DNA of 64,000 nt, from contig JAQSWN010000051.1 in the NCBI GenBank assembly GCA_029266615.1, positions 1 to 64,000 on the forward strand, in the 5' to 3' direction. This stretch comes from Polyangiaceae bacterium (GTDB lineage: Bacteria > Myxococcota_A > Polyangia > Polyangiales > Polyangiaceae). The notes beneath the pieces are model-generated. The model ran no database searches. It had not been told where the DNA came from and saw only the letters and a program-made list of their open reading frames with translations. Shown here piece after piece: positions 3,634 to 31,109 of the stretch. Position 1 is the first letter of the stretch. Each line of letters starts with the position of its first letter. A program made the translations under genes and the position numbers.

Positions 3634-5085
3634 TCAGAGCGGCTTGTAGTCGTGGGCCTTGAGGAAGCGCAAGAACTCCCGACGGTTCTGGGGTCCAACC
3701 TTACGAGATGCTTGCTTGCGTAGGTTTGCATCAGCCGCGATCGCGCCGCGCGCCTTCGCCACATCGTCGGCCTGGATCGCGCAGCGCCGCTCTTTCGGGT
3801 CAATACCGTAGACCGCGGCTGCGTTGAGCCCGAGGATTTTGGCTTTGACACGTTTCGTTAGTTTTGGGTATCCGTACGCCTCGCGCATGGCTTTGGGGAT
3901 CTCGAAGGCCCTGAAGGCATCGAGCTGATCTTGCGGGCTCCCGTACCAGATCGAGTCCGTTCCCCAGAGGATGTTGTCCTCACCGACGTGAAGCAGCAGT
4001 TTGCCCAAAACGTGGGCAGCTTCGGTGGGGCGAGTCATCAGGTAGCGCCAGGTACTGCCAAGTTCTGCGTACACGTTCTTCGCGGAATGAACGCAGGGGT
4101 TCTCGACGACAGCTTTGATCAGGGTATCCACACCCACTCTCGCGTGCGGATTGTAGGGCCCTTCCACGTTGTCGGCCTCGAACCCGGAATGGTACACGAG
4201 GAAGTTCGTGTCGGGGAATAGCGCGGCAGCGCCGCCGATGTCCGCTGGCGACGCGAACTCGCGGCCGAGGTCGAAGATCGGGAAGCCTTTGTGAGCACAA
4301 ATGATCTTGACCCCCAGCTCACGCGCTCGCTCGATGAACGGGATGCCGACACGCGGGTCATCCAAGCGCCAGCCAGCGCCGAATTGCGTATACACCTTCC
4401 ACGCCGCAACTCCGTAGTCCTCCTTGAGCCGCTGCATCCCATCGAGCTGCTCAGGCCCCATATCCGGCAGAACGATACCGTGAATGATGAGGCGCTGAGA
4501 GTGGGCCATGCGGTTAATCAGCTCTCGCGTCACCGCGGCTTCTTCGTTCTCGAGCGGCGAGTTGCCGGGAACCGCGGGCACTTGCGACAGAACGGCGATA
4601 TCCGTTTCGCTGTTGACGAACAATTCCTGAATGTAGTGTTCGGCATCGAAGCAATCAACGAAGTCCACTTCACCACATTGGCTATACGGAAAGCCGAGGA
4701 ACCCTGCATCGTAGTCCGGGTCGCGCCAGGCCCCCTCGGAGTTCACGTGGTGGGTCTGCACATCGAACACGAACTCGTTGCCCCGAAGTGGCTCGCAGGC
4801 GCAGAGATCCTCAGTCATTTCGTCGGTTACTGCGTACCCCGCGCCATCGCCGCAGCCATAAACCTGGTTGATCACCAACAGCGCGGCCGCGGTACCCATC
4901 TTACTCGCAACGAACTCGCGCCTGGGCATCCCCAGGCGCTTCGAGCGCTCCTGGGTGATGCGCGCGAACAGCTCTTCCGCCTGTCGATCCTTAGGCGTCG
5001 GGTCGGGAGGGGAGAACTCTCCGTTGCAACCCGTGCGAAATGGAATGGGCGACTCGACCGGAATCTCGGTAAGGCTCTTCTTCAT
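3634..5085 (-). CDS. Amidohydrolase-2 family protein with internal Tat-like segment
   Basis: A 483-residue protein of the metal-dependent amidohydrolase (TIM-barrel, PF04909-type) group. Visible features are the early metal-ligand region FDVQTHHVN, a later ICAHKGFP, the YHSGFEADN segment and the late LWGTDSIWYGSP with the catalytic Asp. Before the barrel, around residue 55, RREFVASKMGTAAALLVINQVYG looks like a twin-arginine motif plus hydrophobic stretch, placed unusually far from the start. The ATG at 5085 (MKKSLTEI) is chosen over an upstream extension with low-complexity sequence. Such proteins act as decarboxylases or hydrolases on aromatic acids; the substrate is not predictable. Confidence 0.75.
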   Translation of the reverse strand: MKKSLTEIPVESPIPFRTGCNGEFSPPDPTPKDRQAEELFARITQERSKRLGMPRREFVASKMGTAAALLVINQVYGCGDGAGYAVTDEMTEDLCACEPLRGNEFVFDVQTHHVNSEGAWRDPDYDAGFLGFPYSQCGEVDFVDCFDAEHYIQELFVNSETDIAVLSQVPAVPGNSPLENEEAAVTRELINRMAHSQRLIIHGIVLPDMGPEQLDGMQRLKEDYGVAAWKVYTQFGAGWRLDDPRVGIPFIERARELGVKIICAHKGFPIFDLGREFASPADIGGAAALFPDTNFLVYHSGFEADNVEGPYNPHARVGVDTLIKAVVENPCVHSAKNVYAELGSTWRYLMTRPTEAAHVLGKLLLHVGEDNILWGTDSIWYGSPQDQLDAFRAFEIPKAMREAYGYPKLTKRVKAKILGLNAAAVYGIDPKERRCAIQADDVAKARGAIAADANLRKQASRKVGPQNRREFLRFLKAHDYKPL

Positions 5086-5284
5086 GACTAGTACTTGGTG
5101 TTGGGGGGCTGCGTTCAGACAGGGGAGGTGTTTGCTAGCCCAACCCTGCCGGGGCCGTATCCTGGCGCCAATGGGGCGATATGTCCCCGATCGACGGCAC
5201 ACCGCGCGCCGCGGTCGCTGCTGTCGTCGAGCAATGCCGGGCGACGACGTGGATGCCGGCGGTGGCTACCTAGCGCCTGGACCA

Positions 5285-6676
5285 CTACTGTGGCGGAGCA
5301 TACTTGCTCAGCATTCTTCGGAGCGATCTCCGATCGAGCTCTAGGAGTTTGGCCGCCTCGGCGATGGATCCCGCATAATTAACGACGCGGTTGAGGTATT
5401 CCCAGACGGCACGTTCCAAACGGAGAGGGCGCTCCCGCTGAAACTCGGCGCTCTGCTTGGGGCTCGATCTATTCTGAAGTAGCCGCTCGCCCGAAACTCG
5501 TTCCGAGTGGTAGCCGTGCACGCCGAGGCGCATACAACGGACGGCGCTGGCGACCGAGCCGTGCTCGGTCACGACAACTACAAGCGTCTCCGGATAGGCA
5601 TTGCGAAGCCACTGGATGAAACCAAGCGTTGGCCCGTCATGGAGACGTAGATCGATAACAACTAGCTCGGGGCCGTCACGTTTGATGTAGTTTTTTAGTA
5701 ATTTCAAACGTTCGCACTGCTGGACGGCATAACCCTGGCTGGACAATTCGCGGGCCAGCTGCTGACGATAGCTCCCGGTGGGATGAGCCACTACAGCCAA
5801 GCGCTCGACCCTAATTTCTCTCTCTCCGATATTCCGAGGCGCTTCAGTCGTCACAACGTCATCTCCGAAAGGTGCGCGTCGACCACTTCGCCGTAGCACC
5901 GCACTCTCGGCAATCGTTTCCGCCGGAGCTGCGGCCCCGGAGGACGCGGTCGCGTTCGGCGACCAGCCTATGTCCTCGACGGGATCTCCGTCCGGAGAGT
6001 CCTCGTCCAGGCACGTCTCGTCCGGAGAGCCATTGTCCAGAAACTGCTGCTCGAAAGATTTCTTCTCCGAACGGAGCTGAGCGGGGGCTGTAAGCGTGTC
6101 AGACGAGACACTGAGCCTTTTCATCATTCTGCGCAGGGAGCGGCGCTCCACGCACAGGGCGCGAGCGGTGCTAGCCAATGAACCGCAGTGCGCGAACACC
6201 TCCTGGATGTACCGTTGGCGCATCATTTCGACGCTCACCCAGGTCGTTGGCTCCGCGCCGCGATCGGTCCGGCTACCGTTCTCGAGCGCGAACAGGACCT
6301 GCCGCGCATTGATGGGTTTGGTGAGGTAGTCGACGGCACCTCGCTCGAGAGCGGCCCGCGCCGACTCAATCGAGCCATACATCGTCACGACGATACATCT
6401 CGTTGCAGGGCTGGAACGCTCGATTTCGATCAGCAGGTTCAAGCCGGAGCTCAGGTCCCAGCCTAGCTCGATCAACGCGATGTCTGGCTGATGCTTTTCT
6501 GCGAGCGTCACTGCCTCGGCGAATGCCGTCGCGCGATGGACGCGGCAGCCCGCTTTTACCAGCTCGTCCGCAAGCGTTTCGCCGGACCGCGTCGGATCCG
6601 CTAGCAGGACTGTCCTCGAGATAGCCTGATGCTCGCAGGCGGCCGGCTCGGCGCACTGTGCCAACTGTTCTCCCAT
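5285..6676 (-). CDS. Tandem double RegA/ActR-like response regulator
   Basis: A 463-residue protein with the order REC1-HTH1-linker-REC2-HTH2. Each half resembles a complete RegA/PrrA/ActR regulator, and the C-terminus (DRRSLRRMLSKYAPPQ) matches the Fis-type HTH of that family. REC1 (about residues 22-130) has Glu70 where the phospho-acceptor Asp is expected (IALIELGWD) and keeps Lys120. REC2 (about 292-400) has Asp342 (VVIDLRLHDG) but lacks the acidic pocket (VVAHPT) and the conserved Lys (YHSER). The ATG at 6676 has GGGAAGG upstream. It probably binds DNA without normal phosphorylation control. It may regulate the neighbouring cluster; that is inference from position. Confidence 0.8.
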   Translation of the reverse strand: MGEQLAQCAEPAACEHQAISRTVLLADPTRSGETLADELVKAGCRVHRATAFAEAVTLAEKHQPDIALIELGWDLSSGLNLLIEIERSSPATRCIVVTMYGSIESARAALERGAVDYLTKPINARQVLFALENGSRTDRGAEPTTWVSVEMMRQRYIQEVFAHCGSLASTARALCVERRSLRRMMKRLSVSSDTLTAPAQLRSEKKSFEQQFLDNGSPDETCLDEDSPDGDPVEDIGWSPNATASSGAAAPAETIAESAVLRRSGRRAPFGDDVVTTEAPRNIGEREIRVERLAVVAHPTGSYRQQLARELSSQGYAVQQCERLKLLKNYIKRDGPELVVIDLRLHDGPTLGFIQWLRNAYPETLVVVVTEHGSVASAVRCMRLGVHGYHSERVSGERLLQNRSSPKQSAEFQRERPLRLERAVWEYLNRVVNYAGSIAEAAKLLELDRRSLRRMLSKYAPPQ

Positions 6677-9450: not shown

Positions 9451-10911
9451 CTATCCAGCCAGCTTCAGCGGCGAACCGAAGGAGCTGAGGTAACCCTGGA
9501 CCTCTGTCAGTCGGGACGTGGAGCAGTGTAGTGCTACGACGCCGTCCGGACGCAAGAGCACCATTCGACCAGGACCGAGCGCCTGATTCAATCGGTGCTC
9601 TCGTTGGGCGTTGTCCGCCTCGGTGAAAAGCACGCGGACAGCCGGCGCCTTCGCAGATTGCTCGAAGGCCTGGAGCTCGCGCCGGGCGCGAGACGAGTGG
9701 GAGGGGCCATCGGCCAACAGGACAAACCCCAGCGGCCAGTGCTGAGAATCCGCCGCCTGCCCGCTGGCGCGGAAGCACTCGGGCGCTGAAAGCCAGAACT
9801 TGCCGACGGCCCCGGAGCCGTCGCACTCGTGGATCAGCGCCGACGGCGCATAGCGCTGGCCGAGCCCAGAATACCGCAGCGGGAACGTCGAGCGAAACGC
9901 GTCCCTATTGGCAAGCGTCGGCAAGATCGGGGCCGCCAGCCCGAGATCTCGCCCGCCCGCCAGACGCATCGTGTAGTCGGTAGCTTCGGCGAGTTGACGG
10001 ATGAGCGGCAGCCGCTCTTGTTCATAGCTTTGGAGGACGAGCTCGGCGTCCCGGCAGCCGAGACACGCATACGCCAGCTTCCACGCAAGGTTCAGGGCGT
10101 CGCCAATGCCGGTGTTCATCCCGGTTCCACCGAGTGGAACGAACAGATGTGCGGCGTCACCGGCGATGAACAGCGACCCTCTCCTGAGTCGGTCGGCGAC
10201 GCCCCGGCACAGCTGCGCTCGAGACCGCCAGAATGGGCCGCGACGCAGGAAACCGGCCCCTACGATGACAAAGAGGGTCTGGTCGAACGCATGGTAGTAG
10301 ACCTGATCGCGAGGGGAGCCGTCGCCAAGCTCGAAGTCGCCAAGCACCATATGCGCGGCGTAGTCGGTCAGCTCGAGCTGGGCGCCTAGGCGCTCCCGCA
10401 CGACACTGTGGCGTCCCTCGCACCCGACCACGTAGCGATAGTGCCGGCGCTTGAGCTGCCCGCTGGAGTCCCGGAGCGTCACCTGCGCGGCGTCGCCGCG
10501 CTGTTCCACGTCGACCAGCTCCACGCCGCGTTCGACGGCCCCTCCGGACCTGACGAGCAACTCGTTCAGCTCCAACTCGGTCACGCTCTGCGGTTGCGTG
10601 ACGATGTTACGCACCAGGCCGGGAAGGTATCGGAAGTCCACCGCGGCGAGCCGCTGCGCGCGATGATTCACGTTGAGTCGGCGAATCCGACAACCGGAGC
10701 CGCCCAGGACGCCATACCCGCCCAAGATGGCGATGCCGTATTGCGACAGGTGATTGAGCGCCAGCGCCTTGCTGTCGGACGCGATCGTGAGCTTTGGATC
10801 GATGATGTCTGGCGCCAGGCCGTACCGGCGAAGTGCCCACGCCAAGGTCAGGCCCGTAGGACCCGCGCCGGCGATCAGAACTGATGCCGGTTCCGGAGCC
10901 ATGACACTCAT
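9451..10911 (-). CDS. FAD-dependent aromatic hydroxylase (PheA/TfdB type), shortened
   Basis: A 486-residue class A flavoprotein monooxygenase. The N-terminal VLIAGAGPTGLTLAWALRRYG is the FAD-binding GxGxxG fold, YVVGCEGRHSVVRERLG the second motif, and LFIAGDAAHLFVPLGGTGMN the GD motif contacting the ribityl chain. The C-terminal thioredoxin-like domain is present. The central substrate-binding region between VIVGAGFLRRG and GSLFIAGDAAH is much shorter than in typical members. The start at 10911 forms an ATGA overlap with the stop of the AfsA-like gene, so the two are probably translationally coupled. Hydroxylation of a phenolic or polyketide substrate is the likely role if the shortened protein folds. 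Confidence 0.8.
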   Translation of the reverse strand: MSVMAPEPASVLIAGAGPTGLTLAWALRRYGLAPDIIDPKLTIASDSKALALNHLSQYGIAILGGYGVLGGSGCRIRRLNVNHRAQRLAAVDFRYLPGLVRNIVTQPQSVTELELNELLVRSGGAVERGVELVDVEQRGDAAQVTLRDSSGQLKRRHYRYVVGCEGRHSVVRERLGAQLELTDYAAHMVLGDFELGDGSPRDQVYYHAFDQTLFVIVGAGFLRRGPFWRSRAQLCRGVADRLRRGSLFIAGDAAHLFVPLGGTGMNTGIGDALNLAWKLAYACLGCRDAELVLQSYEQERLPLIRQLAEATDYTMRLAGGRDLGLAAPILPTLANRDAFRSTFPLRYSGLGQRYAPSALIHECDGSGAVGKFWLSAPECFRASGQAADSQHWPLGFVLLADGPSHSSRARRELQAFEQSAKAPAVRVLFTEADNAQREHRLNQALGPGRMVLLRPDGVVALHCSTSRLTEVQGYLSSFGSPLKLAG

Positions 10912-11654
10912 GCTAGCTTGGCGAGCTCTAAAAGCTCTGAGCACTGCGTCATGACCTGAGACGCCGTCTGACGAGCACGTCGGCCTTCGAGACGTGTGCT
11001 GATGGAAGGATCCAGAAGCGTCAACACCATGCTCTGTTCCGCTACGACGATGTCTCCTTGGGTCGAGCGGATCATGAACGAAAGCGGCACCTGCGAGGAG
11101 GTCGCGTCGCCGGTCGCTTCCACCGTGACCGTCAAGGTCGTAGGTACGGGAAACGCGAACGCCAAGAAACTGACCTCACACCGCGCCCAAGCGATCGACC
11201 ACCGCTTGCCCTCGGGGTGTGGACATTCGCGTTCGATGACGGCAATGGTTGCCTGTCGAGCGGCTTCAATCATGACCATGCCGTTCACGTGTTGACCCGT
11301 GACGTGGTCCGCTAATCGATCCTGTTGCGGCTCGACCCGCAGCAGCATTCGATAGGTGCGTGTTGCGATTCGCTGAGGGGTGGTAATCAGAACGTAGCGT
11401 GGGTCACGCTTGTGAGTGAGCTCCGCCGGGCATGACTCTTCCGCATAGGCTAGACGTGGCGCCGAATGGAGCCTTGCTGCGGCTTGTGCCAGCTCGCTCA
11501 GCTGCTCCGCCGTGAGGCCCTGGCCACACACGAGCAGATGGCTCCCGTCGAGCGAGGGGAGCAGCTCCTGAGCTTGATCGTAGGTGATGGCCGCCGTCGT
11601 CTCGGCGAAGGCCCCGTAGCTGTTGCCTACCACCAGATGCACGTTATTCGACAC
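10908..11654 (-). CDS. AfsA-like hotdog protein
   Basis: A 248-residue protein starting at GTG (11654) with GGAG upstream. The segment DHVTGQHVNGMVMIEAARQA matches the A-factor biosynthesis (AfsA) hotdog domain, which in Streptomyces condenses a beta-ketoacyl thioester with dihydroxyacetone phosphate to start gamma-butyrolactone synthesis. AfsA usually has two such repeats; here one is clear and the N-terminal half is divergent. It heads the left arm and its ATGA overlap couples it to the flavin monooxygenase. Because it is cotranscribed with tailoring genes, it may serve the main product rather than a separate signal. Confidence 0.75.
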   Translation of the reverse strand: MSNNVHLVVGNSYGAFAETTAAITYDQAQELLPSLDGSHLLVCGQGLTAEQLSELAQAAARLHSAPRLAYAEESCPAELTHKRDPRYVLITTPQRIATRTYRMLLRVEPQQDRLADHVTGQHVNGMVMIEAARQATIAVIERECPHPEGKRWSIAWARCEVSFLAFAFPVPTTLTVTVEATGDATSSQVPLSFMIRSTQGDIVVAEQSMVLTLLDPSISTRLEGRRARQTASQVMTQCSELLELAKLA

Positions 11655-12404: not shown

Positions 12405-13163
12405 ATGAAAGACCAGACGATCGCAGACGATGTATTGGCGGGCACCAAGCAGTTCGTCCAGGGGCCTGAGGAGTTCGCCCGAATGCCGGCGGAGTACCAC
12501 GACTTGGTCGTCCGGCAGATGATGGTTCATACCGAGGGCGAGTTGTCCGGAGCAGATGACTACCTCGACTTGTTCTATCCGATGACCAACTCGGCGTACG
12601 AGAAGAAGGTCTGCTGCGAGCGCGGCGCCGAGGAGATGGATCACTACCGGAAAGGTGCCGCCATCCTGAGCGCACTCGGTCACGACACGGCGTTTATGAT
12701 CGACACACCGCTGCAGGAGCGCAACCTGTACGCGACCGAGGCGGTCAAGAACGTCGAGACGTGGGTGGAGCGAGGGTTCTTCTCCTTCCTGGGCGAAGCG
12801 GCGGTGTTCGAAGTGCTCAAGGAGATGACCGAGAGCAGCTACAAACCTATCGCGGACATGTGCCCCTCCGTTATCGAGGAAGAGCGCGTTCACGTCGCCC
12901 ATGGCAAGCGCATCATTCGGGACCTCTGTCGCACCGAGAAGGGCCTCGCCGAAGCGCAGCATGCGTTGCTGCGGTGGTGGCCAGTCGCGCTCGATACCTT
13001 CGGGACGAGCAATTCGAAACGCTCGGCCGCCTACGTGAAGTGGCGCTTGCGCAAATTTTCGAACGAGGAGGCCCGGCGCCGGTTTATCGAGCTGACCGCG
13101 CCGAAGCTGCAGAGCCTAGGACTCGAGGTCCCCGGCCACGAATCGAATCGCAAATTTCTTTGA
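12405..13163 (+). CDS. PaaA-like ferritin-fold diiron oxygenase 1
   Basis: A 252-residue ferritin-like protein resembling phenylacetyl-CoA epoxidase subunit PaaA: RWWPVALDTFG, the KWRLRKFSNEEARRRFIE region and the APKLQSLGLEVP tail line up with PaaA. Candidate diiron ligands are Glu44 or Glu46, Glu77-x-x-His80, Glu131 and Glu160-x-x-His163, so the site looks complete. The ATG at 12405 is chosen by alignment with its paralogue at 14432. No PaaB, C, D or E genes are nearby, so it is not a phenylacetate degradation operon. It probably does an O2-dependent hydroxylation, epoxidation or desaturation on a CoA- or ACP-linked substrate. Confidence 0.8.
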   Translation: MKDQTIADDVLAGTKQFVQGPEEFARMPAEYHDLVVRQMMVHTEGELSGADDYLDLFYPMTNSAYEKKVCCERGAEEMDHYRKGAAILSALGHDTAFMIDTPLQERNLYATEAVKNVETWVERGFFSFLGEAAVFEVLKEMTESSYKPIADMCPSVIEEERVHVAHGKRIIRDLCRTEKGLAEAQHALLRWWPVALDTFGTSNSKRSAAYVKWRLRKFSNEEARRRFIELTAPKLQSLGLEVPGHESNRKFL

Positions 13164-13241
13164 ACGTGCGCATGCTTCACGCTCGGCTACTCCGGGCGTG
13201 AGCCGCGCACCAGTCGCATTGGTAGGGATGAGGAGCGCATA

Positions 13242-14390
13242 ATGCTTGTGCGTGAACAATTGGGTACAGCCGGGTTGACTGGAGCCGAGCAGGCGGTGCT
13301 ACGCGCGCTCGGTGGCGACCAGGACTACCTAGATCGGTACCGGGCCGTCACCAGGTTCTCTCGGAACGTCCGCTCGTCGGAGTATCTCCTGACGAACGCC
13401 TGCAACATCCGCTGCCGCGGTTGCTGGTTCTTCGAAAACGACTTCGACAAGACGACCAAGGAGCTCACGACGGAGCCACAGATACGTGAGTTCGTACGGC
13501 GTGAGCGAGAGCGTGGCATCAACTATGCCATCGTCATCGGGGGTGAACCAACGCTTGTCCCGAAGCGCGTCGCCGTCTTCGTCGAAGGGATGGACTACGT
13601 CACCATTTCCACCAACGGCCTCAAGCCGCTGCCGCTGCGCGGGTTCGAGCAGGTCGGCGTGCAGATTTCGCTGTTCGGGGGCGGAGCTCTCGACGACGAG
13701 CTTCGCGCGATCAAGGCAACAGGTGAGCGGTTCAACGGTCTATTCGATACCGCGTTGCGCAACTACCAAAACGACCCGCGCGCTTGCTTCGTCTACGCCA
13801 TCACCGAGGACGGCATTGGATTCATCGAGGAGAGCGTGCGCCGAATCCATGACAATGGAAATCGTGTCTCGTTCAACTTCTATAGCAAGTACGGTAGCGA
13901 CGACCCATTGCGTCTAGACAGCGCCACGCGCCTGGTCGACGCGGCGCTTCAGGTCAAGGCGCGCTACCCAGATACGGTGCTCAGTCACCCGTATTTCATC
14001 GAGACGCTCATTACCGGGCGCTCGCATTGGGGCGAGTTCGGCTACGACGTCTGCCCGAGCCTGAGCGTCGACAACCCCGTACACCTGGCGCGGCTCGCCA
14101 ATGGCAACCCGGTCCTCCCGAAGTTCAACGCTTGGGCGGCCGACTGCGAGACCGTCAACTTCTGCTGCACTTCGGGACACTGCAACGAGTGCCGGGATAG
14201 TCAGGCGATTCTGAGCTGGCTTCAGGTCAGCATGTACCGGTTCCGGACTACACCCGAGCTGTTCAAGACCTGGGTTGAAGTGGCGGAGAGCTACTGGAAG
14301 CAGTTCCCGTGGGCGCTCGGACCACGAGCGGCCGCGCCAAGCCCGGGGGCCCGGCGTGCGCTGCCTCTGGCCCCGAAGACACTCGCATAG
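13242..14390 (+). CDS. Radical SAM enzyme with C-terminal cysteine cluster
   Basis: A 382-residue radical SAM protein. TNACNIRCRGCWFF carries the CxxxCxxC [4Fe-4S] ligands (Cys54, Cys58, Cys61) and VIGGEPTLV is the GGEP motif that binds the SAM amino group. The C-terminal third has many cysteines (ADCETVNFCCTSGHCNECRD), suggesting an auxiliary cluster of SPASM or twitch type. The ATG at 13242 has a good GAGGAG upstream. It is sandwiched between two PaaA-like genes with short gaps. The reaction is unknown; I do not recognise a characterised subfamily. Confidence 0.85.
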   Translation: MLVREQLGTAGLTGAEQAVLRALGGDQDYLDRYRAVTRFSRNVRSSEYLLTNACNIRCRGCWFFENDFDKTTKELTTEPQIREFVRRERERGINYAIVIGGEPTLVPKRVAVFVEGMDYVTISTNGLKPLPLRGFEQVGVQISLFGGGALDDELRAIKATGERFNGLFDTALRNYQNDPRACFVYAITEDGIGFIEESVRRIHDNGNRVSFNFYSKYGSDDPLRLDSATRLVDAALQVKARYPDTVLSHPYFIETLITGRSHWGEFGYDVCPSLSVDNPVHLARLANGNPVLPKFNAWAADCETVNFCCTSGHCNECRDSQAILSWLQVSMYRFRTTPELFKTWVEVAESYWKQFPWALGPRAAAPSPGARRALPLAPKTLA

Positions 14391-14431
14391 ATCCCCATCG
14401 CCGTCGTCGGCGACATCAGTAGGAGAGTGAC

Positions 14432-15175
14432 GTGAATTCATATCCCGAGCCTTTGACGCCGAATTCCGTGGTTGGACCGGACGAATTCTTTCGGATGCCT
14501 GACGAGTACAAGGCGTTGCTGGTTCACCAGATGAAGGTGCATACCGAGGGTGAGGCTACCGGCGCTGACGACTATGCAAAGATCTTCTATCACCTGACCA
14601 AAGACCCGTACGAAAAGATGCTCTGTTGCAAGCTGGCGGCGGAGGAGATGAACCACCACATCATGGGTGTGGAGGTCTTGAAGGCGATCGATGTCGACGT
14701 CAGCTACATGGCTCACCTCGATATGCAGGACCGGAAGCTGTTCGATACGGAAGTTGTGAAGCGGATCGACACGTGGACCGAACGGGGCTTCTTCGGGTTC
14801 CTCTCCGAGGCGGCCGCGTACGCGCAGATCGAGGAGTTTGGTCACTCGAGCTACAAGCCGATTTCTGAGATGGCCGCGAGTATCCTACGGGATGAGAAGG
14901 GGCACATCGCGCATGGCTTCCGGATCATCCGCGACTTGTGCAAGACGGAAGAGGGTAAGGCAGAGGCCCAGGCCGCATTGACCCGCATGTGGCCGGCGAC
15001 CCTGGATCTGTTCGGGCGCAGTGACTCGAAGCGGTCGGCGGCGTACGTGCGTTGGGGGCTTCGGCGGTTGCGCAACGGCGATGCTCGCCAGCGCTACGCG
15101 GAGAGGACACGCCCCAAGTTGGAGAAGCTTGGATTGCACGCTCCCGACAACATGGCCAATCGCAAGTTCGTTTGA
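14432..15175 (+). CDS. PaaA-like ferritin-fold diiron oxygenase 2
   Basis: A 247-residue paralogue of the product of 12405-13163, similar along the whole length (shared VHTEGE, GADDY, SSYKPI, SDSKRSAAYV-type segments). The diiron ligand set also looks complete: Glu39 or Glu41, Glu72-x-x-His75, Glu126 and Glu155-x-x-His158. That differs from PaaA/PaaC, where PaaC has lost its metal site. It starts with GTG at 14432 after TAGGAGAG. It may form a heteromer with oxygenase 1 or act at a second position. A ferredoxin or reductase partner is not encoded in the cluster. Confidence 0.8.
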   Translation: MNSYPEPLTPNSVVGPDEFFRMPDEYKALLVHQMKVHTEGEATGADDYAKIFYHLTKDPYEKMLCCKLAAEEMNHHIMGVEVLKAIDVDVSYMAHLDMQDRKLFDTEVVKRIDTWTERGFFGFLSEAAAYAQIEEFGHSSYKPISEMAASILRDEKGHIAHGFRIIRDLCKTEEGKAEAQAALTRMWPATLDLFGRSDSKRSAAYVRWGLRRLRNGDARQRYAERTRPKLEKLGLHAPDNMANRKFV

Positions 15176-15197: not shown

Positions 15198-16163
15198 ATG
15201 CCTGGATCCGCGATGATGAGCGCTCGTGAAGCTATTTACCTGAGCAGCATCGAGTACGCTCTCGGAAGTGTGCTGCCGATGAGCCAGGCTCTTGCGGGAC
15301 AGGTTGGCCCTGAGCTCATGAGGAAGCTCGGCGATGGTGGGTTCTCGGGCGTGGCGGTTGCCGAGCGAGGTGCCGTCGAGCTCGCAGCGGCAGCGGCGGG
15401 CGCCGTCCTGACGCGAGGGAATATCGGTGCATCAGCGATCGACGCCGTGGTGTACGCGACCTGTAGCTTCTGGGGGGACGAGCAGGGGGAGGCGAATCGA
15501 GGCTGCCTTCAGTCGCAGCTGCTCGACCCTCTGGGGTTGGCCCACGCGCTCCTGTCGGGGGTGGCCCTGGCCGAGTCAGGAAATCTGGCCAGTGCGCTCC
15601 GAGTCGCATGCAACCTGGTGCGGAGCGGTGACGCCGAGACGGTCCTCCTCGTCACCGCGGATCGAGTGCCCGGGATCCCTGGTGAGTACCGAGCCATGCC
15701 CAACGCGACCGCGATCAACAGCGATGGGGCCGCGGCCTGTCTGATAACCAGAGAGCCACGGCACGGGTTCGAGGTCGAGCACATCGCCCAGCACGCCAAT
15801 CCGTGCATTCTGGAGAGGGTCAAAGGGGACGGCTTCGGAAAGTACTTGGACATCGTGGCGGGGTTGCGCGCCGCCGCTGGCGCGGTATTCCGCTCAACTG
15901 GTGCTTCACCTGACCAGTATCGGTGGCTGGTTACGAACAACTACAGCGTACCGACCATCTATGGCTTCGCCGAAGCGCTCGACGTGCGCCGCGAAAGGGT
16001 CTTTGTCGATAACGTCGCGCGTTTTGCACACGCTTTTGCGGCCGACGGACTCATCAACCTGGCCGACCTGCTGGCGGCGGCGGCGGCCCGGCGGGGGGAG
16101 CGGGTACTTGCACTATCGACTGGTCCTTTGACTTGGGGGGCGATCAGCTTGCGCCGATGCTGA
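15198..16163 (+). CDS. KASIII-like protein lacking the catalytic Cys (a)
   Basis: A 321-residue thiolase-fold protein of the FabH/KASIII group: IDAVVYATCSFW, SGDAETVLLVTADRV, INSDGAAACLI and DNVARFAHAFAADGLINLADLL follow the family pattern. The nucleophile position reads AESGNLASALRVA, with Ser127 aligned where Cys is expected. The His of the usual HQAN/HNVN motif is Asn247 (TNNYS). The third position keeps His in FAHAF. The start could instead be 15213 or 15216. It overlaps the next KASIII-like gene by 7 bp (ATGCTGA). It may be an acyltransferase, a structural partner, or an enzyme with a different mechanism. Confidence 0.75.
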   Translation: MPGSAMMSAREAIYLSSIEYALGSVLPMSQALAGQVGPELMRKLGDGGFSGVAVAERGAVELAAAAAGAVLTRGNIGASAIDAVVYATCSFWGDEQGEANRGCLQSQLLDPLGLAHALLSGVALAESGNLASALRVACNLVRSGDAETVLLVTADRVPGIPGEYRAMPNATAINSDGAAACLITREPRHGFEVEHIAQHANPCILERVKGDGFGKYLDIVAGLRAAAGAVFRSTGASPDQYRWLVTNNYSVPTIYGFAEALDVRRERVFVDNVARFAHAFAADGLINLADLLAAAAARRGERVLALSTGPLTWGAISLRRC

Positions 16164-17020
16164 AACAAGCGACTCGCCAATTGTATCTGACCGCCCTCGA
16201 AACGGCCATTGATCGGGGCCCTTCGGCGGACCCGCTGCAGGTCGCTGGGGTCGCGCTCGATCGGACGGTCGCGAGCGCAACGGCGCTGGTCGAAGAATCG
16301 ACGCTGCTGTTAGTCGCAGGATTCGCGTTCTCGGGACCGCGTCGGGCGCTGCCGAGGAGCGGGGCGCAGACAGCGGTCTTGGACAACGAGCTCGGTTCGA
16401 CGTTCGCGCGCGAGCTACTGCTGCGCCGTGGTCTTAATCGCCTTCAGCCACACGGCGTCCTGTTCGCAGAACATGCCCCGTTCGTGAATACGCTGCGCAT
16501 CGCGCGGAGCTTCGTCCTCGGTGAGGGCTTGCGGCACGTCCTCTGGGTCGTCGTGGACGCTGGCAAATGGGTTGTGCGGCCCCGAGAGTCCGCACGGAGC
16601 CACGATGGGGACCCGACGATCGGAGCCGCCGCGGGTCTGCTGACCTGCGAGGCCGAGAACGGCATCGGGATCCTCGGTATCAAGCGGGTGGCGGGTCCGA
16701 ATCCGAGCGCGCGCGCAGCGCTTGACGTGATCGCTGGACTAGGCGCCGAGCCCTGTGTCATCGGATTGCGGACTGCTCGTGGGGCCGGGCGGATCGGCGC
16801 CGCGCCCTCGTGGACTTCCGGGCTCGAGCACGGCTCGGTGGCCGAGCGTGTGAAGCGTCTGAACGCCTGGGCCGCGCCTACGGACCTCGAGTGCACACCT
16901 CTCGCGGCGGTATGCGAAGGCGCGGCCGACGTGCTGGAGGTAGCAACTTTCGAGCACCCGGACCGTTGGCGCGTTCGGGCTCGACAGCACTTCGTCGGCG
17001 ACGAGGGAGGTTCACGATGA
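16157..17020 (+). CDS. KASIII-like protein lacking the catalytic Cys (b)
   Basis: A 287-residue, more divergent thiolase-fold protein. GVLFAEHAPFVNTLRIARSFVLGEG aligns with the nucleophile helix of protein a, putting His106 at the Cys position; GEGLRHVLWVVVDAG and DPTIGAAAGLLTCE match the following strand and DGAGA-type region. The C-terminal half is short and lacks recognisable His/Asn motifs. The start at 16157 gives an ATGCTGA overlap like the one between later genes. The adjacent pair resembles heterodimeric arrangements such as PqsB/PqsC, but here neither subunit has the Cys. It ends in an ATGA overlap with the thiolase. Confidence 0.6.
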   Translation: MLKQATRQLYLTALETAIDRGPSADPLQVAGVALDRTVASATALVEESTLLLVAGFAFSGPRRALPRSGAQTAVLDNELGSTFARELLLRRGLNRLQPHGVLFAEHAPFVNTLRIARSFVLGEGLRHVLWVVVDAGKWVVRPRESARSHDGDPTIGAAAGLLTCEAENGIGILGIKRVAGPNPSARAALDVIAGLGAEPCVIGLRTARGAGRIGAAPSWTSGLEHGSVAERVKRLNAWAAPTDLECTPLAAVCEGAADVLEVATFEHPDRWRVRARQHFVGDEGGSR

Positions 17021-18252
17021 AGCGCGCCGTCATCATCGACGCGGTGCGCACGCCCATCACCAAGGGCTTTCAGGGTGAGTTGCGCGATATGCGCCCCGAT
17101 GACCTGGCCGCGTCGTGCATCGATGCCTTGCTCCAAAGGAACCCTGGTCTCGACCGGCAATGGATCGACGATTGCATCGTGGGCTGCGGTTTCCCCGAGG
17201 GAGCGCAGGGCATGAACCTGGGCAAGAACGTCGCTGTGGCCTCTGATCTCGGCGAGGGCGTCGCCGGCTGCACCGTTAGCCGCTACTGTGCTTCGGGGTT
17301 GGAGGCAATCGCCAACGCCGCTGGCAGGGTGGCGAGTGGCTACTCGGAGGCGGTCATTGCTGCTGGGGTCGAGTCTGTATCGCAGACACTGCGCACCGTG
17401 AACACCGAGCGTCTATTCAACCCTCGCATCGAGCAAAAATCGCCGGGCACATACGTGCGCATGAACCCAGCTGATCGAGTCACCCCTTTCTGGAAACGCG
17501 CGGTCCGTTGCATGGGCGAGACCGCGGAGATCCTGGCGGAGCGCGAGCGGATCGGCCGAGCGCAACAAGACGAGTTTGCCTGCCGAAGCCAGGCGCGTAC
17601 TGCGGCGGCGCAGCGATCTGAGCTCTTTGCCGACGAGATCATCGCGGTGCTGTTGGAACCTGGCTTGGACCTAGCGTCGAGGACTGCCAGCCAGCCGTTG
17701 ACTATCCGGCGCGACCTCTGCAATCGCCCGGACACGACCGAGGCCGTGCTCGCTGGCCTCGAGCCCTCGTTTCGCCCGAACGGTACCGTCACCGCGGGCA
17801 ACGCTGCACCGCCGTGCGATGGGGCAGCGGCTGCATTGATCGTTAGCGAAGACTTCGAGGCGCGTCATGCCCTCCCCAAGCTTGGCTACTTCTCGGGGTA
17901 CGCGGTGACAGCGTGTGAGCCGGAGCTGATGGGCAAGGGGCCGACGTTGGCAATCCCCAAGCTGCTGGCCCGGCACGGGCTCCGATTGGCCGACATCGAC
18001 CTGTTCGAGATCAACGAAGCGTTTGCGGCTCAGATGGTCTATTGTGAACGGGCTCTCAACCTGAACCCGGGGCGGGTGAACGTGAACGGAGGGGCGATCA
18101 GCGTCGGGCACCCCTTCGGCATGACCGGCGTGCGGCTCGTGGGTCATCTCCTACGAGAGCTGCGGCGCCGGGGCGGACGGCGTGGTGTGGTAGCGATGTG
18201 TACCGGCGGTGGGATCGGGGTCGCGGCATTGGTGGAGGCGGCGCAGTGCTGA
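17017..18252 (+). CDS. Thiolase family acyltransferase
   Basis: A 411-residue thiolase (acetyl-CoA acetyltransferase family). All active-site parts are present: Cys91 in TVSRYCASGLE, the EINEAFAAQ segment, the His in GGAISVGHPFGMTG and the second Cys in AMCTGGGIG. The ATG at 17017 overlaps the previous stop (ATGA) and begins MKRAVIIDAVRTPITKG, a canonical thiolase start. It could supply acetoacetyl-CoA or another beta-ketoacyl starter to the cluster, or cleave one. It is the only thiolase-fold protein of the three neighbours with an intact active site. Confidence 0.85.
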   Translation: MKRAVIIDAVRTPITKGFQGELRDMRPDDLAASCIDALLQRNPGLDRQWIDDCIVGCGFPEGAQGMNLGKNVAVASDLGEGVAGCTVSRYCASGLEAIANAAGRVASGYSEAVIAAGVESVSQTLRTVNTERLFNPRIEQKSPGTYVRMNPADRVTPFWKRAVRCMGETAEILAERERIGRAQQDEFACRSQARTAAAQRSELFADEIIAVLLEPGLDLASRTASQPLTIRRDLCNRPDTTEAVLAGLEPSFRPNGTVTAGNAAPPCDGAAAALIVSEDFEARHALPKLGYFSGYAVTACEPELMGKGPTLAIPKLLARHGLRLADIDLFEINEAFAAQMVYCERALNLNPGRVNVNGGAISVGHPFGMTGVRLVGHLLRELRRRGGRRGVVAMCTGGGIGVAALVEAAQC

Positions 18253-18926
18253 CCGACGGCGGACACGATGGTCCCCTTTCCGAGCTGGACCCGCGTGCCA
18301 CCGCGGCAGGCCCACTGGTCGACGCCGACCACCCGGTGGTGGCGCAATTCGTCCGACGGGTCGCGGGTGCGGCGACTGGAATTCGGGCCGTCGAGCTGCT
18401 GTTCGCGGTCGTGCGCGACCACATACGATATCAGGGGGTGGTCGATTACTCGAAGGAAGAGAGTTATCGCGCCAGCTCCGTGCTGAAATCGTCCCGGGGC
18501 TTCTGCATAGGCAAGGCAGTGCTACTCGCGGCGTGCGTACGTTCGCTCGGAATTCCAGCGGCGCTCGGCTTCGCCGACGTGCGCAACCATCTCGCCAGCC
18601 CCAAGCTACGCGCCTTGATCGGCGGTGACCTGGTCGTGTGGCACGGCTACACCAAGCTGTTCGTGAATGGCCGCTGGTTCAAGCTGAGCCCCGCCTTCGA
18701 TCGCGACACGTGCGAGAAGTTCGGCACCGCCGTCCTCGAGTTCGACGGCACGAACGACGCACTGCTCCAGCGGTGTGATCTGCACGGAAGGCAGCACATG
18801 GAGTATGTCCGTAGTCGGGGCACGTACTACGAACCGCCAGTCGAGCTGCTGGCAGCCGAGTTTCGGCTGCATCACCCGCAGCTTTGGGCCGTCGCTACGG
18901 AGCAGTCACCACCGCTCGCGCGGTGA
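18246..18926 (+). CDS. Transglutaminase-like protein
   Basis: A 226-residue protein with the transglutaminase/arylamine-acetyltransferase-like Cys-His-Asp triad: Cys87 in SSRGFCIGKAVLLAACVRSLGIPA, His133 in VVWHGYTKLFVNG and Asp152 in LSPAFDRD. It starts at a GTG overlapping the thiolase stop (GTGCTGA). It is immediately followed by an ACP gene. Transglutaminase homologues such as AdmF in andrimid biosynthesis form amide bonds between carrier-bound acyl groups. The same chemistry is a reasonable hypothesis here, but many such proteins are proteases of unknown role. Confidence 0.75.
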   Translation: MLTDGGHDGPLSELDPRATAAGPLVDADHPVVAQFVRRVAGAATGIRAVELLFAVVRDHIRYQGVVDYSKEESYRASSVLKSSRGFCIGKAVLLAACVRSLGIPAALGFADVRNHLASPKLRALIGGDLVVWHGYTKLFVNGRWFKLSPAFDRDTCEKFGTAVLEFDGTNDALLQRCDLHGRQHMEYVRSRGTYYEPPVELLAAEFRLHHPQLWAVATEQSPPLAR

Positions 18927-18958: not shown

Positions 18959-19198
18959 ATGCCGATCGAAGAACGCATCAAGACACTTATCATCGAACAG
19001 CTTCGGGTTGGCGGCGAAGACGTCGAGCGCGACGCCACGTTCGCGGATCTCGGGGCCGACTCTCTGGACCTGGCGGAGCTCCTCATGTGCTTCGAACAAA
19101 CTTTTGGGGTCCGGATTCCACCGGATTCCGCGCGTGAGCTGCGCTCAGTGGGCAGCGCCATTGATTATATAGTGGGCGCGACCTCGGATGAGCGCTGA
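18959..19198 (+). CDS. Acyl carrier protein 1
   Basis: A 79-residue ACP. LGADSLDLAELLMCFEQTFG contains the phosphopantetheine-attachment Ser35 in the DSLD motif. The ATG at 18959 follows AAGGAG. Its 3' end overlaps the KS gene by 11 bp, so ACP and KS are probably made together and work as a pair. No phosphopantetheinyl transferase is encoded in the window. Confidence 0.9.
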   Translation: MPIEERIKTLIIEQLRVGGEDVERDATFADLGADSLDLAELLMCFEQTFGVRIPPDSARELRSVGSAIDYIVGATSDER

Positions 19199-20483
19199 AC
19201 GCAAGGAGCCGAAAGCGGGCGTGCCTCGTCGACCGCGTGGTGGTCGACGGGTCGTCGTGACCGGCCTAGGTTGCATTTCGCCCGTCGGACTGGACGCTGC
19301 CGCCAGCTTCGGGCGTCTGCTCGAGGGTAGATCGGGCGTCCGCCCGATCTCGCATTTCGACGCAAGTACGTTCGATTGTCGCATCGCGGGCGAGGTCGAC
19401 GGCTTCGACCCAGCCAACTATGGCATCGGGGTCAAGGACGCCCGGCGAATGGATACGTTCGCGCAGTTCGCGTGTGCCGCGGCCAAGATGGCCCTCGACG
19501 ACGCAGGCATCGACCTGTCGCGGGCGCCGCACGACCGCATCGGCGTCTCCATCGGCACGGGGGTCGGTGGCCTTCAGGTTATTGAGAAGCAGCAGGAGCG
19601 TCTGCTCAAACGCGGGCCGCGCGCGGTTAGCCCCTTTCTCATCCCGATGATGTTGGGGAACCTAGCCTCGGGGCATGTCGCGATCCGTCATGGTCTAAGA
19701 GGGCCGAACCTGCATGTGTCGACCGCTTGCGCCACCGGCACGCAGGCCATCGCTGATGCCGGAGCAACCATCGAACGCGGCGACGCCGACGTCATGTTGG
19801 CGGGGGGAGCAGAGGCCGCGATTACGCCGCTACTGGTGAGTGGGTTCAGCGCAGCTGGGGCCTTGTGCACGAGTAATGCAGACCCGGCTGGTGCCAGCCG
19901 TCCTTTCGACCGAAGCCGAACAGGCTTCGTCATGGGCGAGGGCGCAGGCGTGCTCGTACTCGAGGATGAGGAGTTTGCCCGTCGGCGTGGCGCCGCGATC
20001 CTGGCGGAGCTTACGGGTTACGGGGTCTCGAGCGACGCGCACCATGTCACGGCCCCTGAGGAGGGAGGGCAAGGAGCTCAGCTGGCCATGCGGATGGCGC
20101 TGGCTCGTGCCGAGCTCGCTTCCGAGCAGATCGACTACGTTAACGCGCACGGAACGGGTACCGTCCTTGGAGATATAGCCGAAGCGCGAGCGGTCAAGCA
20201 GGTGTTCAAGGAGCATGCGACCAGCGGGGGTCTGTGGCTCTCCGCGACCAAGTCGATGACGGGACACTTGCTCGGCGCCGCGGGCGCCGTGGAGGCCGTC
20301 ATCTGCGTCCAGTCAATTCGACACGGGAAGGTGCATCCGACCATCAATCTGAACGACCCAGATCCGGAGTGTGACCTCGACTTTGTCCCGAAGGAAGCTC
20401 GCGACCGGCGGCTGCAGGCGGTCATGTCCAACTCGTTCGGCTTTGGTGGCACCAACGCAACGCTCATCTTCCAGACGTATTGA
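19188..20483 (+). CDS. FabF-type beta-ketoacyl-ACP synthase (KASII)
   Basis: A 431-residue KASII-type condensing enzyme with an intact triad: Cys181 in HVSTACATGTQ, His319 in VNAHGTGTVLGD and His358 in KSMTGHLLGAAGA, plus Lys353 and the C-terminal NSFGFGGTNA. It carries an extra N-terminal stretch of about 18 residues before RVVVTGLGC. No second KS or chain-length factor is nearby, so it is not a classical type II PKS minimal set. It probably extends an acyl chain on ACP 1 by malonyl units from primary metabolism. Confidence 0.9.
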   Translation: MSAERKEPKAGVPRRPRGGRRVVVTGLGCISPVGLDAAASFGRLLEGRSGVRPISHFDASTFDCRIAGEVDGFDPANYGIGVKDARRMDTFAQFACAAAKMALDDAGIDLSRAPHDRIGVSIGTGVGGLQVIEKQQERLLKRGPRAVSPFLIPMMLGNLASGHVAIRHGLRGPNLHVSTACATGTQAIADAGATIERGDADVMLAGGAEAAITPLLVSGFSAAGALCTSNADPAGASRPFDRSRTGFVMGEGAGVLVLEDEEFARRRGAAILAELTGYGVSSDAHHVTAPEEGGQGAQLAMRMALARAELASEQIDYVNAHGTGTVLGDIAEARAVKQVFKEHATSGGLWLSATKSMTGHLLGAAGAVEAVICVQSIRHGKVHPTINLNDPDPECDLDFVPKEARDRRLQAVMSNSFGFGGTNATLIFQTY

Positions 20484-22585: not shown

Positions 22586-23857
22586 ATGATGATTCGGCAG
22601 CTAGGTTTCGCGGAGGCGCGCATGCATTTCATGCATGCGTTGTTCGAGGGGACCACCCAGACATTGGCGGCAGTGCGGCTGCAGGGGCGCTTCGAGCTGA
22701 GCCTGTTCCGGGCCGCGGTGGACGAGCTAATCGCTCGCCATGAGCTGCTGCAGTGTACGATCGGTGAGCAAGCTGGCGCGCTCGTCTTCGAGCGCGTCGG
22801 GCCGTCGCTCACGTGCTTGGAGGTCTTGGAAGAACCGGACTGGAGGGCCGGGTTTCAGGTCATCAACTCCGTGCGTCTCCCGTTGGACCGGAGCCCCTGG
22901 GCTATTCGCATCCTACTCGACCCCGCGCACGGCTCGTGGGAGCTGGTGCTCGTCACGCACCACAGTCTGATGGATGGGCACGGCATGGACCGGCTCCTAC
23001 GAGAGCTGCTCGAGCGCTACAGCGACCGACTGAGGGACCCTCAGGCTAGGCGACCGGTGTCTATCCGCCCTGTGCCCGCGGCCGCCGAAGCCATGCTCCC
23101 GCGCACCTTGAGCTGGCCCGACTTTGCGGCTCGCCAAGCACAGCTCGCGGGTCTCCAGCCCGCGCGGATTCCCGACCCGCACGTTGCGCGAGCTCCGCAC
23201 CGTGAGCGCCGCACCGCGACGCTCTTCTTCAGTCTACCCCCTCGTCGCGTTGAGGAGTTGGCCCGACGCGCGTCCGAGCAGCGTACCACGTTCAACTCGT
23301 GGATCGCGGCCTGTTTGTTGCGCGCGGTGTTCGAGCACTCGCCGAACCGTTCGACGATGGCTCTCAACACGGCGTTCTCTCTTCGATCGCTGTGTGATGG
23401 GCTCGAGGCCGACGATCTCGGCTGCTATGTCGCGGTCGTTCCGACGTTTCATGGCACTTGTACCGGCGTTCCGATTGCCGACCTAGCGCGCGATCATGGG
23501 CGACTGCTGACGCGCGCGATTTTCGAGTACGCGCGTCATCCCGAGTCCGCGGCCTTTGCCGCAATGCGGTCCGCCCTCGAGCCGCTCGCGGACGTGAGGG
23601 CGTTCGTGCAGGACATTGGGTACACCTACGCGGAGACGGCGCTTCTCGACCGCTACGGAGAGCTGACCGTCGAGCACTTCTATGCAAGCGCCAATCGCGC
23701 GGCGGGGACTGCCGCAGCCGTGTTGCACGGCGTGAAACATCAGGGAGCGGTGTATTTCACCATGAACTACACGGCCCCGCTTCAGGACCATGCCTGGGTG
23801 CAGCAGGTGACGGACGAGCTCCTCCGGCTGTTCACGTACGAGGCGTCCGCAAGCTGA
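22586..23857 (+). CDS. Standalone condensation-domain acyltransferase
   Basis: A 423-residue protein of the condensation/PapA/wax-ester-synthase superfamily. The catalytic motif is THHSLMDGHG (His125, His126, Asp130), and the C-terminal half contains the expected second lobe with LNTAFSLRSLC. It is not fused to A or T domains. Its neighbour ACP 2 is the likely acyl donor. It could form an ester or amide between the carrier-bound acyl chain and a free alcohol or amine. It is the last gene of the right arm. Confidence 0.85.
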   Translation: MMIRQLGFAEARMHFMHALFEGTTQTLAAVRLQGRFELSLFRAAVDELIARHELLQCTIGEQAGALVFERVGPSLTCLEVLEEPDWRAGFQVINSVRLPLDRSPWAIRILLDPAHGSWELVLVTHHSLMDGHGMDRLLRELLERYSDRLRDPQARRPVSIRPVPAAAEAMLPRTLSWPDFAARQAQLAGLQPARIPDPHVARAPHRERRTATLFFSLPPRRVEELARRASEQRTTFNSWIAACLLRAVFEHSPNRSTMALNTAFSLRSLCDGLEADDLGCYVAVVPTFHGTCTGVPIADLARDHGRLLTRAIFEYARHPESAAFAAMRSALEPLADVRAFVQDIGYTYAETALLDRYGELTVEHFYASANRAAGTAAAVLHGVKHQGAVYFTMNYTAPLQDHAWVQQVTDELLRLFTYEASAS

Positions 23858-29815: not shown

Positions 29816-30814
29816 CTACTGCTTCACAGCGTCGTCGCCGCGAGGCGTTTCCACGCCATTACCATCGATGCGGTCGATGGCGCTACGCAGGTCGTCCGCA
29901 TCGAGGTCGGCGTAGCGTTGCGTGGTTGCAAGGTCGGCGTGGCCGGCGAGCTGTTGGATGGCGACGGCAGATGCTCCGTTCCGGAATAGTTCCGTCACGA
30001 AGAAGTGCCGTAGGTCGTGGAACGACCACCCCTCGAGCTTGGCTCGCTCCGTAGCGCGTCCGAATGCCTGGTTTAGGCCGAACTCGCCCCAGGGCTTGCC
30101 CCGCGCCGTCAGCGCAACTGGAGCCCACGGGCTCGCCTTCTTTGGTGCGGCCGCCTGGAGCGCCGTTCGTAGGCGGCGACCGACGGGTACCACCCTCTGG
30201 TGGTGCGACTTCGGCGTTACCTCAACGCCAAGCGTTACCCCTCGGCGGACCGTGATAGTGCCAACCTTCAGGTCCACGTCGGACCAGCGCAGGCCGCGGA
30301 CCTCGCTCGCGCGCAGCCCGGCGAAGGCCGCTAGAGCGAAGGCCAGCCTGCCCTCGTTGTTTGCCGCCGCGAGGATGGCCTCGAGGTCCGCACGGCGCAT
30401 CGGACGCGGAACCTTTCGACCGACCTTCGGAAGCGCCGGCAGCGCCGGCATGGCCTTGAGCATACCCGCACGGCGAGGTGCGAGCAGGACGTCGATCCTG
30501 TTCTCGTAGCCAGCTCGAGTTGACGGCTTGAGTCCGTTCTTGAGATGCGTCGCGCGGAAGTGCCGAACGGCGTCGTGGAACGTGTACGCCGCAGCAGGCT
30601 CGTCGTTGTCCGCGGTCGTATCGTTGAGACTTGGCGCAAGGGTACCGGTCTGCGCTAGCTCAACGAGCAGACGTCGGTGCTCGGCTTCGGCACCGCTCTT
30701 CGTCTGCACTTGTGCGTCACGGCGATAGCGTTCTCGCTTGCCGTTTGCTGTTTTGTACGGGATGTCAATGACCCAGCGGGACTTGCCGTCCCGTTCTACT
30801 TTCCGAATGGTCAC
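29816..30814 (-). CDS. Tyrosine integrase of element B, with internal deletion
   Basis: A 332-residue tyrosine recombinase from GTG 30814 (VTIRKVERDG). The catalytic domain is complete: Arg in AGLRASEVRGLRW, SFHDLRHFF, and GHADLATTQRYADL with the Tyr. Compared with the copy in element A, about 44 residues are missing in frame between NRIDVLLAPR and RAGMLKAMP, removing the second half of the core-binding domain. The reading frame is open, but DNA binding is probably impaired. A longer start at 31015 is possible; the added sequence overlaps the excisionase-like gene and looks non-coding. Confidence 0.8.
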   Translation of the reverse strand: MTIRKVERDGKSRWVIDIPYKTANGKRERYRRDAQVQTKSGAEAEHRRLLVELAQTGTLAPSLNDTTADNDEPAAAYTFHDAVRHFRATHLKNGLKPSTRAGYENRIDVLLAPRRAGMLKAMPALPALPKVGRKVPRPMRRADLEAILAAANNEGRLAFALAAFAGLRASEVRGLRWSDVDLKVGTITVRRGVTLGVEVTPKSHHQRVVPVGRRLRTALQAAAPKKASPWAPVALTARGKPWGEFGLNQAFGRATERAKLEGWSFHDLRHFFVTELFRNGASAVAIQQLAGHADLATTQRYADLDADDLRSAIDRIDGNGVETPRGDDAVKQ

Positions 30815-30896
30815 AGCGGGGAGACTCCCCAACGATGCCCATCGGCTGCTTGGCCAGGGCAGCCTATCACGGCGTCGCGTGCCGTCGCACGCTGGC

Positions 30897-31109
30897 CTAC
30901 TCGGTCCACTGCTTCCCGAACGAAACCCGCCAGCGGTTGGCGAACTTGCGGCCCCGAACTCCGTCAATGCGCGCTTCGACGCCGCCGTCGGGGGCTCGGC
31001 GGGCTTGCCGCTCAAATTGCTTCCGCAGCGCCGCGGGTGAGGTTGAAAGGATCTGCGCGGCGTCTCGAAGAGCGTACCAGCGCAGGGGAGGCGCGGGCTT
31101 GTTTACCAT
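30897..31109 (-). CDS. Excisionase-like small HTH protein (element B)
   Basis: A 70-residue protein, paralogue of 1394-1618, with LRWYALRDAAQILSTSPAALRKQF and IDGVRGRKFANRWRVSFG. It lies just upstream of the integrase and its start overlaps the stop of the 66-residue gene before it by 7 bp. Position and repeated pairing with int suggest a directionality factor or int regulator. Confidence 0.65.
   Translation of the reverse strand: MVNKPAPPLRWYALRDAAQILSTSPAALRKQFERQARRAPDGGVEARIDGVRGRKFANRWRVSFGKQWTE

Follow-up and report, generated by a model that had tools for sequence, protein, structure and literature searches.

The 64,000-nucleotide stretch analysed here, hereafter the window, spans positions 1 to 64,000 of contig JAQSWN010000051.1 from a Polyangiaceae bacterium (assembly GCA_029266615.1). 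It carries two paralogous proteins that resemble PaaA of phenylacetyl-coenzyme A (CoA) epoxidase, encoded on either side of a radical S-adenosylmethionine (SAM) enzyme, here called rSAM. The original prediction had described this arrangement from the sequence, and the three genes are confirmed by profile scans: both PaaA-like proteins exceed the Pfam cut-off for PF05138 (PaaA_PaaC; 28.5 bits), and rSAM exceeds that for PF04055 (29.5 bits).

12405..13163, + strand: PaaA1, predicted PaaA-like ferritin-fold diiron protein, 252 residues; PF05138 73.8 bits; ligands E46, E77/H80, E131, E160/H163
13242..14390, + strand: rSAM, radical-SAM enzyme, 382 residues; PF04055 33.3 bits; CxxxCxxC motif
14432..15175, + strand: PaaA2, second PaaA-like protein, 247 residues, GTG start; PF05138 75.9 bits

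PaaA1 and PaaA2 share 53% identity. The ATG at 12405 agrees with the start of the PaaA1 orthologues in Sorangium and in the Polyangiaceae genome G027. Chance does not explain the trio, as three other Polyangiaceae genomes keep the same arrangement.

Metal sites, fold and separation from phenylacetyl-CoA epoxidase

The metal ligands of Escherichia coli PaaA are E42, E72, H75, D126, E155 and H158 (PMC4498308). Alignment to this protein shows all six positions filled in PaaA1 (E46, E77, H80, E131, E160 and H163), and PaaA2 carries the same six residues in PaaA1 numbering. Full carboxylate/His sets had been claimed for both proteins, and they withstand careful alignment with one nuance: the equivalent of Asp126 is Glu131, and Glu occupies this position throughout the rSAM-linked clade. 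The lysine bridge of PaaA, formed by Lys68 with Glu49, is absent, Lys68 being replaced by R73 in PaaA1 and by Leu in PaaA2, and Glu49 by Tyr. From 13 PaaA1-type proteins, 54 family-invariant residues were defined; the PaaA2 of the window retains 50 of them, whereas the decayed PaaA2 copies described below retain 26–28. A Cys-Cys pair ahead of the first ExxH motif (C70-C71; codons 70–71 of 12405-13163) is likewise invariant in rSAM-linked PaaA1 and PaaA2 proteins and does not occur in E. coli PaaA.

The AlphaFold2 (AF2) model of PaaA1, with a predicted local distance difference test score (pLDDT) of 92.9, matches PaaA (3pvr_A, VIA Z 26.2), SSO1313 (25), BoxB (22.7) and PaaC (21.5). It lies over PaaA at 2.5 A across 246 residues and covers PaaA residues 1–265 only. 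The C-terminal end of PaaA, in which Leu286 forms part of the substrate "door" (PMC4498308), has no counterpart. The window proteins share with E. coli PaaA (3pvr/3pw8) the ferritin-like fold, six equivalent ligand positions and membership of the PF05138 family of CoA-thioester oxygenases. Beyond the exchanges listed above, they differ in being only about 22% identical, in ending before the part downstream of the residue-265 equivalent, in lacking PaaB, PaaC and PaaD, and in having rSAM as operon partner. PaaC is regarded as the structural subunit of PaaA/PaaC (PMC4498308); the PaaA2 proteins of Sorangium and G027 recall it as ligand-poor paralogues next to an active one, whereas the PaaA2 of the window has every ligand. 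The benzoyl-CoA epoxidase BoxB is monomeric and works without a structural subunit (PMC4498308). It shares the fold, and single-copy relatives of PaaA1 may also work in this way, but BoxB is a 477-residue chain with extra regions and has other partners.

Despite the common Pfam family and fold, several lines of evidence set the trio apart from PaaA/PaaC. Scores against the PaaA equivalog TIGR02156 (89.0 bits for PaaA1, 82.9 for PaaA2) stay far below the cut-off of 280, as do those against the PaaC model TIGR02158 (28.8 and 33.1 bits; cut-off 133). The incomplete metal site typical of PaaC is not seen in the PaaA2 of the window, whose site is complete. Genome-wide, PaaA1 and PaaA2 are the sole PF05138 proteins, PaaB and PaaD were not found, and PaaE yielded only generic ferredoxin-reductase matches, all under the cut-off. 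The earlier statement that other Paa subunits are missing thus extends to the whole genome within what was searched (no PaaB, PaaC or PaaD; PaaE below cut-off only). In a maximum-likelihood tree, which included true PaaA and left out PaaC itself, the rSAM-linked proteins, decayed PaaA2 copies among them, stand apart from true PaaA with support of 95/95. Ordinary phenylacetyl-CoA breakdown by PaaA/PaaC, that is PHENYLACETATE catabolism, is ruled out for practical purposes by these scores, the absent subunits, the missing lysine bridge, the Glu in place of Asp126 and the tree. The same 95/95 branch parts the rSAM-linked proteins from another clade of Polyangia PaaA-like proteins (L014, L078-L081), which were not counted with the trio, as they form a separate clade and have another, probably catabolic context. 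This other clade has the Asp ligand and no lysine bridge; its member at L014:9521-10225, from the same genus, probably belongs to a cluster for the degradation of aromatic acids, which includes a separate ferredoxin reductase.

The radical-SAM enzyme and its pairing with PaaA1

The CxxxCxxC motif of rSAM reads CNIRCRGC at residues 54–61. Towards the C-terminus, C308, C314 and C317 are invariant in the alignment and C271 and C309 nearly so; their conservation suggests an auxiliary Fe-S cluster. Profile scans gave no match to the SPASM profile, and no NCBIfam cut-off was reached. The rSAM model (pLDDT 85) matches BlsE (VIA Z 17.8), SkfB (17.2) and anSME (16.0). Likeness to BlsE and to the SPASM/twitch-type enzymes SkfB and anSME (Z 16–18) lies in the radical-SAM core and probably in the Cys-rich C-terminal half; identity is at most 20%, and no precursor peptide was recognised among the operon genes.

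A genome scan with rSAM as query returned 25 named loci, a figure that is an undercount because only two short peptide patterns were used. A PaaA1-like gene adjoins rSAM or lies one gene off at 16 of the 25. These pair loci span Sorangium, Cellvibrionales, Alteromonas, Alteromonadaceae, Oleiphilaceae, Pseudomonas sp. 8O, Marinobacter, Parvularcula, Tistrella (two loci), Rhodospirillales, Burkholderia stagnalis and others, so that outside Polyangiaceae the pair occurs in Alpha-, Beta- and Gammaproteobacteria. Every one of the 16, save Sorangium, has a single PaaA1-like copy. Distances in the rSAM tree closely follow those in the PaaA1 tree (Pearson r = 0.90 over 78 pairwise distances, which are non-independent), and together with the adjacency this indicates a pair inherited and transferred as a unit. 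rSAM and PaaA1 are therefore a conserved pair that has been inherited or transferred jointly in Myxococcota and in three Pseudomonadota classes; rSAM taken by itself is more widely distributed.

A MaoC-type or 4HBT hotdog gene is often the third gene beside the pair; a thiolase adjoins the pair in Cellvibrionales, and an acyl carrier protein (ACP) gene adjoins rSAM in Defluviicoccus. On Alteromonas plasmids, genes for a Tn3 transposase and a recombinase are found close to a PaaA-rSAM-MaoC unit (L064:16968-21565), which marks the pair as mobile. A match of equal identity to this unit occurs on NZ_OR497351, a record labelled Enterobacter hormaechei that may be mislabelled. In Tistrella (pTM3, L027:12770-13939) and in a metagenome-assembled genome of Rhodospirillales (L026, ~4815-5855), a second ferritin-like protein with weak AurF/PaaA_PaaC matches follows PaaA1 directly. 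The Burkholderia stagnalis locus (L065:6964-17058) places PaaA, rSAM and a PaaI thioesterase beside an acyl-homoserine-lactone synthase and a cassette of chlorinating enzyme, ACP and adenylation genes.

More distant relatives of rSAM in Polyangia, about 35% identical, are encoded as tandem rSAM genes adjoining ACP and ketosynthase (KS) genes, with no PaaA gene there. Such rSAM-rSAM-KS clusters with ACP were seen in several Polyangia (L069:8354-10526, L071:8872-9882, L047-L062), and L069 also holds PlsY-like and phosphopantetheinyl transferase (PPTase)-like genes. Pairs of rSAM genes associated with fatty-acid synthesis (FAS) are known from lipid clusters of Kuenenia and Desulfotalea (PMC2649909). 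By analogy with that published description rather than with the sequences, the Polyangia clusters are candidates for a comparably unusual lipid pathway, and the wider rSAM family would point to acyl-ACP substrates.

The trio itself recurs in two Sorangium genomes (L018, L037) and in G027 (L013), in the same order PaaA1-rSAM-PaaA2-thiolase-ACP-KASII (beta-ketoacyl-ACP synthase II), with PaaA1 and rSAM about 70% identical to those of the window. In all three, PaaA2 has decayed: E46 is replaced by Ala or Ser and E77 by Asp or Gln, G027 additionally has Val in place of E160, and some 20–30 residues are missing from the C-terminus. Through the loss of two or three ligands and of the C-terminus, this PaaA2 resembles PaaC. 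The PaaA2 of the window is the sole intact second copy among the loci compared. The contrast that the original prediction drew with PaaA/PaaC, in which one subunit is inactive, accordingly applies to the window, where both sites are complete, but does not extend to the nearest relatives. A recent tandem duplication of PaaA1 into PaaA2 within this genome was rejected (approximately unbiased (AU) test, p = 0.004).

The surrounding gene cluster

The trio heads an operon whose downstream genes are closely spaced or overlapping, and the locus is a biosynthetic cluster of the discrete KS/thiolase/ACP type. An oppositely oriented operon with an AfsA-type hotdog gene and further enzyme genes probably belongs to it.

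15198..16163, + strand: beta-ketoacyl-ACP synthase III (KAS III)-like protein; PF08541/PF08545; alignment to FabH 2ebd_A
16133..17020, + strand: weak KAS III-like paralogue; BLASTP to the preceding gene E 2e-5; no Pfam match
17017..18252, + strand: thiolase; TIGR01930 400 bits, above cut-off
18198..18926, + strand: transglutaminase-like protein; PF01841 47 bits
18884..19198, + strand: acyl carrier protein; PF00550; TIGR00517 76.1 bits, above cut-off; the true start may lie inside the frame
19188..20483, + strand: beta-ketoacyl synthase of type II; PF00109/PF02801
20502..21698, + strand: cytochrome P450; PF00067 107 bits
22231..22545, + strand: second ACP-like open reading frame (ORF), DxLGLDSN motif, read from the sequence only
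22586..23857, + strand: PapA5/condensation-type acyltransferase, HHxxxDG; PF00668 37 bits; NF006787 under cut-off
10908..11654, - strand: AfsA-type hotdog protein, divergent operon; PF03756 58 bits
7087..10944, - strand: divergent operon with flavin adenine dinucleotide (FAD) monooxygenase, aldo/keto reductase, alpha/beta hydrolase and ABM monooxygenase; PF01494, PF00248, PF12697, PF03992

In the alignment to FabH, the catalytic residues Cys, His and Asn correspond to Glu, Asn and His, respectively, in the first KAS III-like protein (15198-16163), and the nucleophile position of the second (16133-17020) reads Ala-Glu. The two genes (15198-17020) may encode a non-condensing pair of KS III type that recalls PqsB/PqsC. 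A phage-type integrase gene (29816-31015, - strand) lies about 5 kb downstream of the cluster.

Proposed function and alternative explanations

Tentatively, and at somewhat less than even confidence, we favour the view that the trio provides a diiron oxygenase and an rSAM dedicated to each other, that their substrate is an acyl chain bound as a thioester, and that PaaA1 and PaaA2 form a heterodimer. The trio would form the oxidative core of the discrete-enzyme (KS/thiolase/ACP) cluster, and the chain that it modifies is probably lipid- or polyketide-like and tethered as a thioester. PaaA1 and rSAM would both act on the same acyl thioester, more likely carried by the cluster ACP than by CoA. 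With electrons from a general ferredoxin system, the PaaA1 diiron site would activate O2 and hydroxylate, epoxidise or desaturate the chain, and the 5'-deoxyadenosyl radical of rSAM would abstract a second hydrogen from it. The auxiliary Fe-S cluster may then accept an electron, resulting in dehydrogenation or bond formation. In the proposed PaaA/PaaC-like heterodimer, PaaA2 would bring a complete metal site in the window and serve as a mainly structural partner in Sorangium and G027.

An acyl-thioester substrate is likely because ACP, KS and thiolase genes share the operon and hotdog genes stand beside the pair elsewhere. The thiolase-ACP-KS set kept in Sorangium and G027, the thiolase of Cellvibrionales, the ACP of Defluviicoccus and the distant rSAM genes in ACP/KS/PlsY clusters point in the same direction. 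ACP is preferred over CoA as carrier because the match to PaaA stops at residue 265 and the end with the Leu286 "door" is absent. The heterodimer is suggested by the retention of a ligand-poor, shortened PaaA2 in the operon of three genomes, and by a PaaA1 model that matches both PaaA (Z 26) and PaaC (Z 21.5).

Several points weigh against this view. At nine of the 25 rSAM loci, one of them a short contig, no PaaA gene lies in the DNA examined; these include the Burkholderia cepacia group (with an alpha/beta hydrolase), Defluviicoccus and the Burkholderiales locus L041. Several other Myxococcota also carry rSAM without PaaA nearby. Such relatives imply that rSAM can work without PaaA. Support for placing the PaaA2 of the window with the decayed copies reaches only 78/77 and is no more than suggestive. 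The constraint apparent at the active site of the window's PaaA2 (50 of 54 residues) would be needless in a purely structural partner. Scans of the ORFs around the cluster, some small ones excepted, revealed no dedicated ferredoxin or reductase, and the preference for ACP over CoA is itself inferred.

The main competitor, which we consider unlikely, is the view of the original prediction that PaaA1 and PaaA2 are two independent homodimeric oxygenases, which oxidise the substrate in successive steps on either side of the rSAM reaction. In both proteins the ligand set is complete and few of the family-invariant residues are missing, and the rejection of a recent tandem copy leaves time for functional divergence. 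Most relatives outside Polyangiaceae have a lone PaaA1-like protein, which makes a homodimer or a monomer possible, as in monomeric BoxB (PMC4498308). Those same relatives, however, mostly combine one oxygenase with rSAM, and in the three closest two-copy relatives the second oxygenase is ligand-poor and shortened at the C-terminus but has been retained in the operon, a pattern that suggests a partner role without catalysis in this lineage. Because of this decay, a catalytic/partner heterodimer fits better than two oxygenases in sequence. The proposal of sequential or joint oxidation of an acyl thioester therefore stands as regards a working link to rSAM, given the kept adjacency and mirrored trees, and a likely thioester substrate, whereas the sequential use of the oxygenases finds no support as such. 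It is improbable that the PaaA2 of the window is already a purely structural or regulatory partner with relic ligands. Decayed counterparts do exist, and one subunit is structural in PaaA/PaaC (PMC4498308), but six ligands and 50 of the 54 invariant residues are kept, against 26–28 in decayed copies. We give slightly less credence still to the notion that the PaaA-like proteins serve rSAM rather than oxidise a substrate: by consuming O2 or peroxide, or by handling electrons or iron, they would protect or activate this oxygen-sensitive enzyme. The pair is found in aerobes, its strict partnership is with rSAM, and no dedicated reductase was seen nearby. On the other hand, the closest folds are PaaA, SSO1313 and BoxB, of which PaaA and BoxB are CoA-thioester oxygenases, and several rSAM relatives do without a PaaA-like protein.

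A search of the open-access literature, with subscription papers outside its reach, found no paper linking a radical-SAM enzyme to a PaaA-like protein. The component families are already known; the fixed PaaA1-rSAM pairing and the series from intact to decayed PaaA2 are new. It is possible, although we hold this with less assurance than the heterodimer proposal, that the pair represents a horizontally mobile and so far undescribed diiron-oxygenase/rSAM module whose two enzymes act in tandem on carrier-bound acyl chains, and that this genome keeps an intermediate, namely a duplicated oxygenase with a full metal site before PaaC-like decay. It is unusual for a diiron enzyme that uses O2 to form a fixed gene pair, across phyla, with a radical enzyme that is sensitive to oxygen. 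If both indeed share one substrate, they would constitute a new two-step C-H functionalisation module in a compact, portable gene set. Moreover, the window and the Sorangium loci have the same operon and gene order, but PaaA2 is intact in the former and decayed in the latter. Their comparison offers a testable model for the origin of active/inactive diiron heterodimers such as PaaA/PaaC.

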